Shown here one piece after another: positions 38,040 to 41,129 of a stretch of 43,862 bases of DNA. Position 1 is the first letter of the stretch, and each line of letters starts with the position of its first letter. The DNA is from Methanotorris formicicus Mc-S-70. GTDB taxonomy: Archaea; AGJL01; Methanococci; Methanococcales; Methanococcaceae. The notes under the pieces were generated by a model, which worked only from the letters and a program-made list of their open reading frames with translations, did no database searches and was not told the origin of the DNA. The DNA lies in assembly GCF_000243455.1 (NCBI RefSeq), contig NZ_AGJL01000008.1, positions 1-43,862 on the forward strand. Reading direction: 5' to 3'. The position numbers and the translations under genes were made by a program.

Positions 38040-39374
38040 TTAAAGTTCAATTCTATCCCAGGGCAATTCTCCTTCAATCCTACCTAAATATTCATCCAAT
38101 AAACCAAGATTTTTTATATTTTTAATTAATCTTATGGGTTTTTCTGAATTCTCCAATATGTTGCCCAACTCTTCTCCTCCTCTGCAAAGTATGCATTGAC
38201 ATATCATTGAATTGAAATTTTCACTTTCAACACCTACGCCAATTTTTTTGAGATTCTTCTCTATGTATTTTATCTTATTTTTTGCAGTTAAATCAAAACT
38301 TTCTCTTTCAAAAGGCGTTCTCGGTTTTGGAATCATTGGATTTATGCTAATCTCAACCTTTCTTATGTTTTCTTTTATTCTTTTTGTGAGTTTTATAATC
38401 TCCTCAATATCTTCCTTTCCCTCATCAACAATCCCAACCATGAAATATAATTTAATCTTGTCTATACCATGTTCTTTTGCCAATTCTACAGCATTTAAAA
38501 TATCTTCTTCAGTAATGTCTTTTTTGATCACTTCCCTTAACCTCTCGCTCCCTGCCTCTGGAGCAATTGTCAGTGTTTTTAATTTCAACAAACTTAATAG
38601 TTCATCTGTTATAGTGTCTGCTCTTAATGAGGATGGGGATATTTGGACTTCCTTCTCATTTAAATATTGGCATAAATCAAGGATATGTTTATAATCCCCA
38701 ACAGAAGGGGCTATTAACGCAACTTTATTAACTTTTGTGTATTTCAAACCTTTATCTACCAAATAAATCAAATCGTCAAGTTTTCTAAACCTTGGAGGGT
38801 GGTAAATGCTCCTCGCCATGCAGAATTTACATCTCCTTGGACATCCCCTTCCTATTTCCAATAAAAATGCCTTTCCATAAGCCCCACTTTCATGAGTTAT
38901 TTGATTTATTGGATAATCCTCTATCGTCAATTTTTTTGGATATATGCGTTTTATTTTACCTTCTCTATTTGGGAAGTGAACACCTTCTTTTATCCAATCG
39001 AAATTTCTGGTTATTAGGTTATACATTACCTCAGTTCCCTCTATCTCCCCAACAACAAATGCATCAAAAAACTTACTTAATGGGAATGGATTGCTTATTG
39101 CACACGGTCCTCCGCCAATGAAGATTGCATTTGGATTTTTTGCTTTTAGGTCTTTTATTATTTTTACAACATTAAAATAATCGTTTTCATATTGGAGTGT
39201 AATTATTATTGAATCATAGTTCTTAATTTCTTGATAATTTTCAATGAAAAACATCTTGCAATCAATATCTCTATATTTATTTAAATGATGGTAAAGAATA
39301 TGCATAGCAAGACAAGAAATACCGCCTTTAAATTTATTTGGAAAAATTACTGCAACATTTTTTATATTTTTCAT
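38040..39374 (-). CDS. B12-binding-domain radical SAM protein
   Basis: A 444-residue protein. The N-terminal 140 residues form a B12-binding-like Rossmann domain (NVAVIFPNKFKGGISCLAMH, FIGGGPCAISNPFPLSKFFD, AFVVGEIEGTEVM). The radical SAM domain follows with the normal GRGCPRRCKFC motif (about 179), IAPEAGSERLREVIKKDITE and INPMIPKPRTPFER, all typical of this group. CQCILC near the C terminus may bind metal. Methanogens carry several B12/radical SAM families with mostly unassigned substrates, often methyl transfer. I set the start at ATG 39374, before the domain; the longer frame would add a chance hydrophobic stretch over the promoter. It is divergent from another radical SAM gene. Confidence 0.87.
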   Translation of the reverse strand: MKNIKNVAVIFPNKFKGGISCLAMHILYHHLNKYRDIDCKMFFIENYQEIKNYDSIIITLQYENDYFNVVKIIKDLKAKNPNAIFIGGGPCAISNPFPLSKFFDAFVVGEIEGTEVMYNLITRNFDWIKEGVHFPNREGKIKRIYPKKLTIEDYPINQITHESGAYGKAFLLEIGRGCPRRCKFCMARSIYHPPRFRKLDDLIYLVDKGLKYTKVNKVALIAPSVGDYKHILDLCQYLNEKEVQISPSSLRADTITDELLSLLKLKTLTIAPEAGSERLREVIKKDITEEDILNAVELAKEHGIDKIKLYFMVGIVDEGKEDIEEIIKLTKRIKENIRKVEISINPMIPKPRTPFERESFDLTAKNKIKYIEKNLKKIGVGVESENFNSMICQCILCRGGEELGNILENSEKPIRLIKNIKNLGLLDEYLGRIEGELPWDRIEL

Positions 39375-39536
39375 GTTATCACTATATAGAGCGTTTGTAA
39401 TAGAAAAAATTAAAATGACAAAAAAGCACAGATATATCATTTAAATTAAAATTTTATCATCATTAGAAGAAAAGAATAAAAAAATTTTAGAACAACTAAT
39501 ATTTAAGTTTTGTGAAATGGGATAAAGGTTTTGATT

Positions 39537-41129
39537 ATGAAGGCTTTAATTATAGATTGTTTGGCAACAGTTGATGGAAAAAAATTATTGACAAGAGATG
39601 TTATAGGATGTGGTCCAAGAACTGTTAAGGGAATTTTAAAAAACGAGGGAATTGATGCAAAGATTGCTCCATTGGAATATTTTAAAGTGGAAGATATAAA
39701 AAACTACGACTTACTTTTTATCAGTGGTATGACGGTTGATTTTAAAGGAATTAAAAATTTAGTTGATAAAATAAACAGGAAAAGGAACGAAGACCAAAAA
39801 ATCATTATTGGGGGACCAATAGCAAATAATCTCTATATCTTGGAAGAGATTGAGGGTGATATTTCCATCGTTGGAGAGGGAGAGATTACCATAAGGGAAC
39901 TAATAAAAAAGGATTTCAATGCTGAGAATGTTGAGGGAACAACATACTATGATTATTATAAAGAAGAACTAATAATAAATCCACTGAGGGGAATTATTAA
40001 AGATATGAAACTAATAACCCCTTCAACTGAGATAGAGGATTATCCAAACTATTTTTCAGGTAGGGTTTATGTTGAGGTTGTGAGGGGGTGTAGTAATTTT
40101 AAAAGAGCCCTATTGTTATGCGACAATAAAAAATGTAATCTATGTGAAAATGGGACTACAAGATGCCCATTAAACATAAATCCAGGTTGTGGTTTTTGTT
40201 CAGTCCCTTCAGTATTTGGTTATGCAAGGAGTAGGGATTTAGAGGATATCTTGTTTGAGATTGAGGATTTGTTTAAGAGGGGCGTTAAAAGGGTTGTTCT
40301 AAGTGCTCCTGATTTTTTGGATTATAAAAGAGGAAACATGTTAATAAGAGAGAATGCCGAGCAAAGCGAGGCATCCTATCATTTTGATGAAACTTTTTTA
40401 AAGTTTCGGGGAGATGATATTTTAATCAATCCAAAAGAACCACATCCAAATTATGAAGCAATAGAAGAACTTTTATCAAATTTATATGATTTAAAAATCA
40501 AATATAATGCAAGTGTTAGTTTGGAAAATGTTAAGGCAAATTTATTTGATGAAAAAGTGGCAAAAATCATCTCCAAGTACCTTCCAAACACACCACTTTA
40601 TATCGGATGTGAAACAGGAGATGAAGTTCATTCAAAATTGTTGGGGAGACCATCGCTTCCAGAAGATGTTCTAAAGGCTGTTAAAATAGCAAGAAAATAC
40701 AGCTTAAGACCCCAAGTTTATTTCATCTATGGACTACCTGGGCAAAATATGGAAACTGCAATGAATACAATAAACTTTATGGATAAGATAAAAAACCATA
40801 TCGATAAAATTACGGTATATAAATTTAAACCTCTTCCAATGAGTGCGTTTGAGAACTTTAATCCCATAATGGACAAATCATCTATGTTAATAAAGGAAAA
40901 AGCAAGAGAGATAAATAAATATGTTAAAAAGAAATATTTGAGTAAAAAAGTGGATGTTATTGTATCAGAAAGGCATTTTAAAAATAAGAAAGATGCTGTT
41001 GGATATATGGTCAATGGGGGACCAATGGTTGTTGTAAAAAATGGAGCAAATTTTATAGGAAAAACAGTAAAGGTTAAAATCACAAAAACTTATGAAAAGT
41101 TTGTTGAGGGAATTGTATACTCCAAATAA
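39537..41129 (+). CDS. radical SAM protein with TRAM domain and unusual cysteine cluster
   Basis: A 530-residue protein. The N-terminal 130 residues are B12-binding-like (VIGCGPRTVKGILK, LLFISGMTVDFKGIKNLV, IIIGGPIANNLY). Then comes VEVVRGCSNFKR and a Cys-rich stretch (Cys at about 185, 195, 200, 203, 210, 218, 221) ending NPGCGFCSVPSVFGYARSR. There is no CxxxCxxC; the likely cluster cysteines are spaced CX7CX2C, and the four extra cysteines may hold a second cluster or zinc. Later blocks are KRVVLSAPDFLDYKRG, LYIGCETGDEVHSKLLGRPS and VYFIYGLPGQNMETAM. The C terminus (about 470-530, HFKNKKDAVGYMVNGGPMVV) is a TRAM-type RNA-binding domain, suggesting tRNA or rRNA modification. Residues of about 270-290 come from a palindromic insertion. 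Confidence 0.88.
   Translation: MKALIIDCLATVDGKKLLTRDVIGCGPRTVKGILKNEGIDAKIAPLEYFKVEDIKNYDLLFISGMTVDFKGIKNLVDKINRKRNEDQKIIIGGPIANNLYILEEIEGDISIVGEGEITIRELIKKDFNAENVEGTTYYDYYKEELIINPLRGIIKDMKLITPSTEIEDYPNYFSGRVYVEVVRGCSNFKRALLLCDNKKCNLCENGTTRCPLNINPGCGFCSVPSVFGYARSRDLEDILFEIEDLFKRGVKRVVLSAPDFLDYKRGNMLIRENAEQSEASYHFDETFLKFRGDDILINPKEPHPNYEAIEELLSNLYDLKIKYNASVSLENVKANLFDEKVAKIISKYLPNTPLYIGCETGDEVHSKLLGRPSLPEDVLKAVKIARKYSLRPQVYFIYGLPGQNMETAMNTINFMDKIKNHIDKITVYKFKPLPMSAFENFNPIMDKSSMLIKEKAREINKYVKKKYLSKKVDVIVSERHFKNKKDAVGYMVNGGPMVVVKNGANFIGKTVKVKITKTYEKFVEGIVYSK
40352..40408. repeat. in-frame palindromic insertion with two hairpins in the radical SAM gene
   Basis: First hairpin: ATGCC (40354-40358) pairs with GGCAT (40370-40374) around a GAGCAAAGCGA loop. 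Second: GAAACTTT-TTT-AAAGTTTC (40389-40407), eight-base perfect arms. They are translated as a polar stretch (ENAEQSEASYHFDETFLKF) unlike the sequence on either side. The layout, two close hairpins with a 14-base linker, recalls the twin hairpins at 17099-17141. Confidence 0.6.

Follow-up and report, generated by a model that had tools for sequence, protein, structure and literature searches.

An in-frame palindromic element in a radical SAM gene of the archaeon Methanotorris formicicus

Introduction

Palindromic elements that are translated as part of the proteins they enter came to light first in Rickettsia (RPE) and next in Wolbachia; they are also known from the archaeon Methanocaldococcus jannaschii (PMC2229807, PMC2996958). 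An RPE measures 105-146 nt, folds as one long stem-loop and has 12-bp terminal inverted repeats; its target duplication is listed as unknown, and copies are found in RNA genes too (PMC2229807). The M. jannaschii repeats, named MJRE (Suyama, Lathe and Bork 2005, FEBS Lett 579:5281), appear in the passages of the two reviews that cite them as short palindromic repeats, some of which lie within coding genes that remain unbroken; those passages make no mention of long target duplications, of a target motif, or of a bias towards tRNA genes and gene ends (PMC2229807, PMC2996958). A search for reports of long target duplications in archaeal repeats found none; the original 2005 description lay outside that search, and such a report may exist. 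Given the MJRE of M. jannaschii, a palindrome translated in frame in an archaeal gene has a precedent. The 2005 work reportedly distinguishes three groups, MJRE1-3, with a few MJRE2 copies in genes.

Here we analyze one such palindrome in Methanotorris formicicus Mc-S-70. By the window we mean the whole stretch of DNA that was analyzed, the 43,862 nt of contig NZ_AGJL01000008.1. A preliminary description of this locus, made from the sequence alone, had likened the palindrome to RPE. In behaviour the likeness stands, for RPE and the Wolbachia palindromes alike: the element is a mobile palindrome, multicopy and dispersed, and it is translated in frame in an otherwise conserved protein at a place where the orthologues have no counterpart. 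In family it does not stand: the archaeal unit is 62-66 nt long with two hairpins, as opposed to the 105-146 nt of RPE, and this size and architecture, along with its long target duplications, set it apart.

Most likely the element is of the same kind as MJRE, in another genus, a likeness drawn from the descriptions in the reviews (PMC2229807, PMC2996958, in the passages mentioned above) and not from MJRE sequences. Both are short archaeal palindromes, some of them tolerated inside coding genes; the difference is the genus, and that here a sister species has the empty site. The preliminary description had also considered a mobile palindrome inserting in frame in an archaeon to be notable. Such an insertion is confirmed here, but its kind was already represented by MJRE. 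What appears to be new is the mode of insertion, marked by a fixed 3′ end, a motif at the target site and long duplications of the target.

The element also resembles MITEs in being small, non-autonomous, multicopy and target-duplicating (for the copy in the window, the duplication is suggestive only). Unlike MITEs, it has no terminal inverted repeats that span the unit, no parent transposon was found, and its duplications are far longer than is typical of MITEs. The ends of the unit, AAGAGG... and ...GTTTC, are not complementary, and pairing is confined to the two internal hairpins.

Most of the good documentation of translated mobile palindromes comes from Rickettsia and Wolbachia; the archaeal counterpart described here has empty sites in a sister species and a reproducible insertion signature. 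Which enzyme moves the palindromes, and why genes are spared, are questions that can now be tested directly in culturable archaea; M. jannaschii has a genetic system (PMC6616113). Such insertions are also a route by which new peptide segments can get into conserved enzymes.

The insertion in the radical SAM gene

The features of the locus are collected in Table 1 (G and L numbers in the text are our handles for genomes and loci). The host protein comes near the families TIGR04013 and TIGR04014, under their cut-offs (NCBIfam). Head to head with the host gene lies another B12/radical SAM-type gene (38040-39440, minus strand), which too resembles TIGR04013/TIGR04014-like families with scores below the cut-offs.

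Table 1. Coordinates of the host gene, the insertion and its parts, in positions of the window.
Feature	Position	Strand	Basis
Host gene with B12-binding, radical SAM and TRAM domains	39537..41129	+	ORF; Pfam PF02310, PF04055, PF01938
Whole in-frame insertion, 78 nt, 26 residues	40330..40407	+	nucleotide alignment to the sister-species locus L032; protein alignment with 15 orthologues; exact register uncertain by a few nt
Probable target copy on the upstream side, GAGGAAACATGTTAAT, 16 nt	40330..40345	+	78-nt insertion minus 62-nt element; suggestive only
Palindromic element, 62 nt, AAGAGAGAATGCC...AAAGTTTC	40346..40407	+	covariance-model match, 76.1 bits, E 1.2e-14; DNA copies elsewhere in the genome
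Hairpin 1, 27 nt; apical part GAGCAAAGCGA	40351..40377	+	MFE fold; pairing kept across copies
Hairpin 2, GAAACTTT-TTT-AAAGTTTC	40389..40407	+	fold; its end is the sharp 3′ boundary of the element
Probable target copy on the downstream side (the original), GGGGAGATGATATTTTAAT, AGA motif at positions 5-7	40408..40426	+	nucleotide alignment to the sister species; 3′ boundary and motif of other copies; resemblance to the upstream stretch

When aligned to its orthologue in the sister species (G001, the only other genome of the genus, with a host protein 88% identical), the window gene carries exactly 78 extra nucleotides, in frame, and the site in the sister species is empty. The 26 residues are missing from all 15 orthologues, which come from G001 and from 14 genomes of a second family. 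Because the surrounding sequence is strongly conserved, these 78 nt in frame amount to a clean lineage-specific insertion. The unit translates as RENAEQSEASYHFDETFLKFRG within an open frame of 532 codons, and NAEQSEASYHFDETFLK is an example of the peptide that translation of the insertion would be predicted to give. In a predicted structure of the host protein (AlphaFold), residues 267-299 have pLDDT below 50, which fits a flexible loop; we give this little weight, as the underlying alignment is shallow (16 rows) and the cluster region, residues 182-230, is also below 50.

Hairpin 2 of the window copy has 8-nt arms without any mismatch around its TTT loop, while hairpin 1 has a single A-C mismatch and a GC-rich apical part with a tandem G-A internal loop. 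The 86-nt region around the element folds with an MFE of -23.8 kcal/mol (z = -3.99), and none of 200 shuffles was as stable. The preliminary description was right about both hairpins, about a translated in-frame insertion in the radical SAM gene, and about the position, as its 40352-40408 is within 6 nt of the element. It had also named two checks, whether the unit has copies elsewhere in the genome and whether the residues are missing from other species, and its reading is upheld in both, by the orthologues above and by the copies below.

A covariance-model scan finds just this one copy in the window. The two stretches flanking it, the probable target copies of Table 1, resemble each other to a degree that 85 out of 20,000 randomly drawn pairs with equal spacing also reach. 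The flanks are consistent with a target duplication that is short and diverged, and they are suggestive rather than proof of one.

Many copies, one fold

The element is multicopy. A BLAST search with a 74-nt query finds 20 other places in the same genome (E < 1e-3, the query itself excluded), at 77-97% identity, and a covariance model reports 34 copies in this genome and 95 in the sister species (E up to 0.1). At E-values up to 1e-3, the same model detects the element in 23 of 61 relatives, chiefly in the same genus and in a related genus, g5; one genome, G028, has 36 matches. A set of contigs without near relatives gave no match to the host protein or to a degenerate pattern of the element, and is uninformative on the distribution. 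We read the element as a palindromic DNA, dispersed and non-autonomous, whose copies have multiplied in Methanotorris and in archaea of the Methanocaldococcus type.

To what extent do the copies share a structure? The statistics come from an alignment of 22 full copies (A1), with the covariance model serving for the genome scans. All 10 pairs of hairpin 1 are altered on both sides, and 96.4% of its cells are paired. For the whole two-hairpin structure, 97.5% of the cells are paired and 13 pairs have changed on both sides. The covariation amounts to 0.350, compared with 0.154 +/- 0.014 in shuffled alignments and at most 0.077 when the partners are slid. The structure is kept while the sequence varies across copies, and the unit, 62 to 66 nt in size, has two separate hairpins.

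The tip of hairpin 1 can also change as a block. At L147 it is inverted with respect to L121, with CTCGCTACGCTCG in place of CGAGCGAAGCGAG, and at L170, L174, L206 and L220 it has been swapped for unrelated palindromes. The inversion and the replacements suggest that the arms of the palindrome are flipped or exchanged at the DNA level.

A signature of insertion

Direct repeats flank many copies. With a score of at least 18, they are found at 25 of 71 copies, a set that leaves out loci with CRISPR arrays (direct repeats by nature), and at only 2 of 5,688 control sites chosen at random within those loci. In a second, separate set, made up of 42 copies in genomes of g5, g3 and g2, the figures are 7 of 42 against 1 of 1,993 control sites. 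More than half of the copies have no recognisable flanking duplication. Where there is one, the duplicated host sequence spans 18-75 bp, typically about 40, the longest being the 75 bp at L145.

The position of the downstream repeat is also constrained. Its start lies no more than 3 nt from the element's 3′ terminus, mostly at 0, in 24 of 35 copies compared with 40 of 211 control repeats, a control set that still included sister-species CRISPR-array loci, which inflate it. In these 24 end-adjacent cases the repeats measure 13-54 bp (median 38.5). Just 3′ of the element there is a target motif, NTNNRRAR, whose instances include tRNA T-loops; its position 7 is A in 22 of the 24 copies and in 35 of the 42 copies of the separate set. 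Of the element's two ends, the 5′ one seems the less fixed, because extra sequence lies between the upstream repeat and the element at L161 (17 nt) and at L003 (28 nt). The statistics show that insertions in general place one and the same 3′ end (...GTTTC) beside NTNNRRAR and duplicate 18-75 bp of target.

Comparison of the two Methanotorris species gives three pairs of loci in which the other species has an element-free site with one copy of the target (L095/L182, L096/L183, L161/L180). Other insertions are common to both species: L010 clearly, L003 and L011 in part, and, by flank matches, L002/L158, L004/L144 and L159/L143. Since several duplicated sites are present in both, these shared insertions must be older than the split of the two species.

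Two side observations concern landing sites. L183, the element-free counterpart in the window's genome of L096 (a SelB-like gene), carries a different, GC-richer insert directly after the stop codon, and because of this other inserted sequence the 3′ end at L096/L183 appears as a repeated landing place. In the sister species, many copies lie in or beside CRISPR arrays with the repeat GTTAAAATCAGACCCTTAGGGGGATGGAAAC (L092, L098, L101, L103, L115, L119); a partial CRISPR repeat follows directly after the element at these loci, as if the element had inserted into an array and the composite had then spread.

Gene ends and tRNAs

Most copies sit at the 3′ ends of genes or tRNAs, or between genes, and copies within genes are rare. 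The 3′ end of a same-strand gene is abutted by 30 of the 71 copies. In 7 of these 30 the stop is formed as T-AA at the edge of the element, with the element's first bases; other gene-end copies have the native stop within the duplicated target, or a stop supplied by the element a few codons in. Examples, identified by inspection, are smc, pheT, selB, argF and the gene of the F420-hydrogenase beta subunit. About 10 copies follow tRNA genes, and there the downstream repeat starts in the T-loop, at a GTTCGAATC-like sequence. The F420-hydrogenase beta-like gene has the element at its 3′ end in both Methanotorris-type genomes and in G028 (L159, L143, L167), each with a T-AA stop; a second copy of this gene end, with the element, lies elsewhere in G001 (L099).

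Of the 132 copies examined, no full copy but the one in the window lies well within an ORF on its own strand. Others that might have passed for in-gene insertions, such as L131, L152 and L226, run antisense to the ORF or lie close to one of its ends, and we left them out of the count. There is a partial second translated case at L016, in a flavoprotein-like gene: hairpin 2 is read as NFDETF.K and forms part of the linker that joins two CxxC clusters. This piece is common to both Methanotorris-type genomes and missing from 11 relatives.

Are the hairpins then primarily a structured RNA, or a 3′-end processing or termination signal, which spread behind genes because it was useful there and of which the window copy is an accident? 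The 30 of 71 copies at same-strand gene ends and the ten or so behind tRNAs are in line with such a role, as are the strong conservation of pairing and of the tandem G-A loop of hairpin 1. However, Rfam 15, run at the gathering score on nine loci, places no family on the unit (in the same loci it reports an SRP RNA, a tRNA and a C/D box RNA, all off the unit), and survival at 3′ ends is explained by the duplicated flanks alone. The inverted or replaced apices of hairpin 1 also point to exchange at the DNA level, and not to a conserved RNA motif. We regard an RNA signal as an unlikely primary explanation.

Proposed explanation

The explanation that we favour, with a probability of about 85%, is that a multicopy palindromic element inserted in frame in the host gene, probably duplicating its target, and that the frame was kept. 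The copy would have landed among the codons that separate a strand of the radical SAM domain from the helix after it. The 62-nt element plus some 16-19 nt of duplicated target would make up the 78-nt insertion without a stop, and the enzyme would have gained 26 residues with its frame intact. Within genes, insertions would be expected to survive only if their length, taken as a whole, is divisible by three and leaves the frame open. At 3′ ends, an insertion would leave the gene working if the duplicate carries the last codons and the stop, or the 3′ end of the tRNA from the T-loop on, so that the gene keeps its end owing to the long duplication of the target; alternatively, a TAA supplied by the 5′ edge of the element itself may spare the gene. 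As mover we assume a candidate integrase acting in trans.

It is possible, and we propose it tentatively, that this is an undescribed type of archaeal mobile element: a gene-less DNA of two hairpins that targets NTNNRRAR, with a sharp 3′ end and duplications of about 20-75 bp. The same tentative proposal includes that extra donor sequence is sometimes brought in at the 5′ side, that integration is perhaps Cas1-like, and that genes are spared through duplication of their 3′ ends or through the frame.

An alternative origin of the flanks is that the direct repeats came first, as local tandem duplications, and that the element was inserted later or expanded by recombination between repeats, in which case no insertion mechanism with long duplications would be required. 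At L011 the window's species has the arrangement X-E-X-E-X against a single E in its sister; L004 has three copies of X, and both loci fit such a history. The repeats of L003 look homogenised, which fits it too and makes repeat identity unusable for dating insertions. But the downstream repeat mostly starts exactly at the element end, and with a common target motif; the empty sites of the other species carry a single target copy; and the repeats derive from many unrelated genes. We find repeats that predate the element rather improbable, and retain target duplication at insertion as the preferred reading of the flanks.

Candidate movers

What could move an element that has no genes? Casposases target tRNA genes or the 3′-distal parts of genes and duplicate 14-15 bp, while Cas1-Cas2 duplicates a whole repeat (PMC6614799). 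A Cas1-type integrase, either the CRISPR adaptation proteins or a relative of the casposases, would give both long duplications and targets at tRNAs and gene 3′ ends. Casposases and CRISPR integrases share a preference for these targets and duplicate them (PMC6614799), and our element has the same target bias and sits between copies of a duplicated target. The distribution across genomes may point in this direction too: a Cas1 of at least 275 bits is found in 19 of 36 genomes, and the element is in 17 of these 19 against 4 of the 17 without it (Fisher p 1.1e-4, counted by genome, in a sample where genomes are phylogenetically non-independent and CRISPR goes with thermophily). There are exceptions in both directions: G016 has 19 element matches but lacks that Cas1, and the element is missing from G014 and G017, which possess it. 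Moreover, casposons carry genes, have terminal inverted repeats and make fixed duplications of 14-15 bp (PMC6614799), and our element has no genes, shows no terminal inverted repeats, and duplicates a variable 18-75 bp. As the specific mover, a Cas1-type integrase seems to us improbable, at about the level of repeats that came first.

Insertions of the IS200/IS605 type produce no target duplication. The long duplications observed here clash with a REP-type palindrome moved by a Y1 transposase of that type (TnpA-REP/IS200-IS605). Small palindromes with fixed ends would suit this enzyme, or a reverse transcriptase that copies back an RNA, and the extra 5′ sequence before the fixed 3′ end at L003 and L161 is as expected of 3′-anchored copying. 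Pfam searches, however, find no Y1 transposase in G001 or G028 (one is present in G000), nor any RVT_1 reverse transcriptase (PF00078) in G001 or G028; because both enzymes are absent from these two copy-rich genomes, we consider either of them very unlikely as the mover. A tyrosine recombinase was rejected because it does not follow the element: G023 and G026 have copies but lack the enzyme, and G004, G010 and G012 have the enzyme without any copies.

Finally, an ordinary lineage-specific loop that involves no repeat would agree with the low predicted confidence and with a loop-like placement that is common in natural length variation, but it is ruled out for practical purposes by the multicopy DNA at 77-97% identity and the exact empty site of the sister species.

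Other repeats around the element

The element keeps company with other repeats in the sister species. Two further palindromes, CGGCAAAACC..GGTTTTGCC and TTTAATAT..ATATTAAA, are nested with it at the G001 loci L135, L137, L147, L089 and L113, and one of these nested palindromes makes up the duplicated target at L135 and L137. Another repeat of about 70 nt, near GTGTGCG, occurs some 30 times in the same genome.
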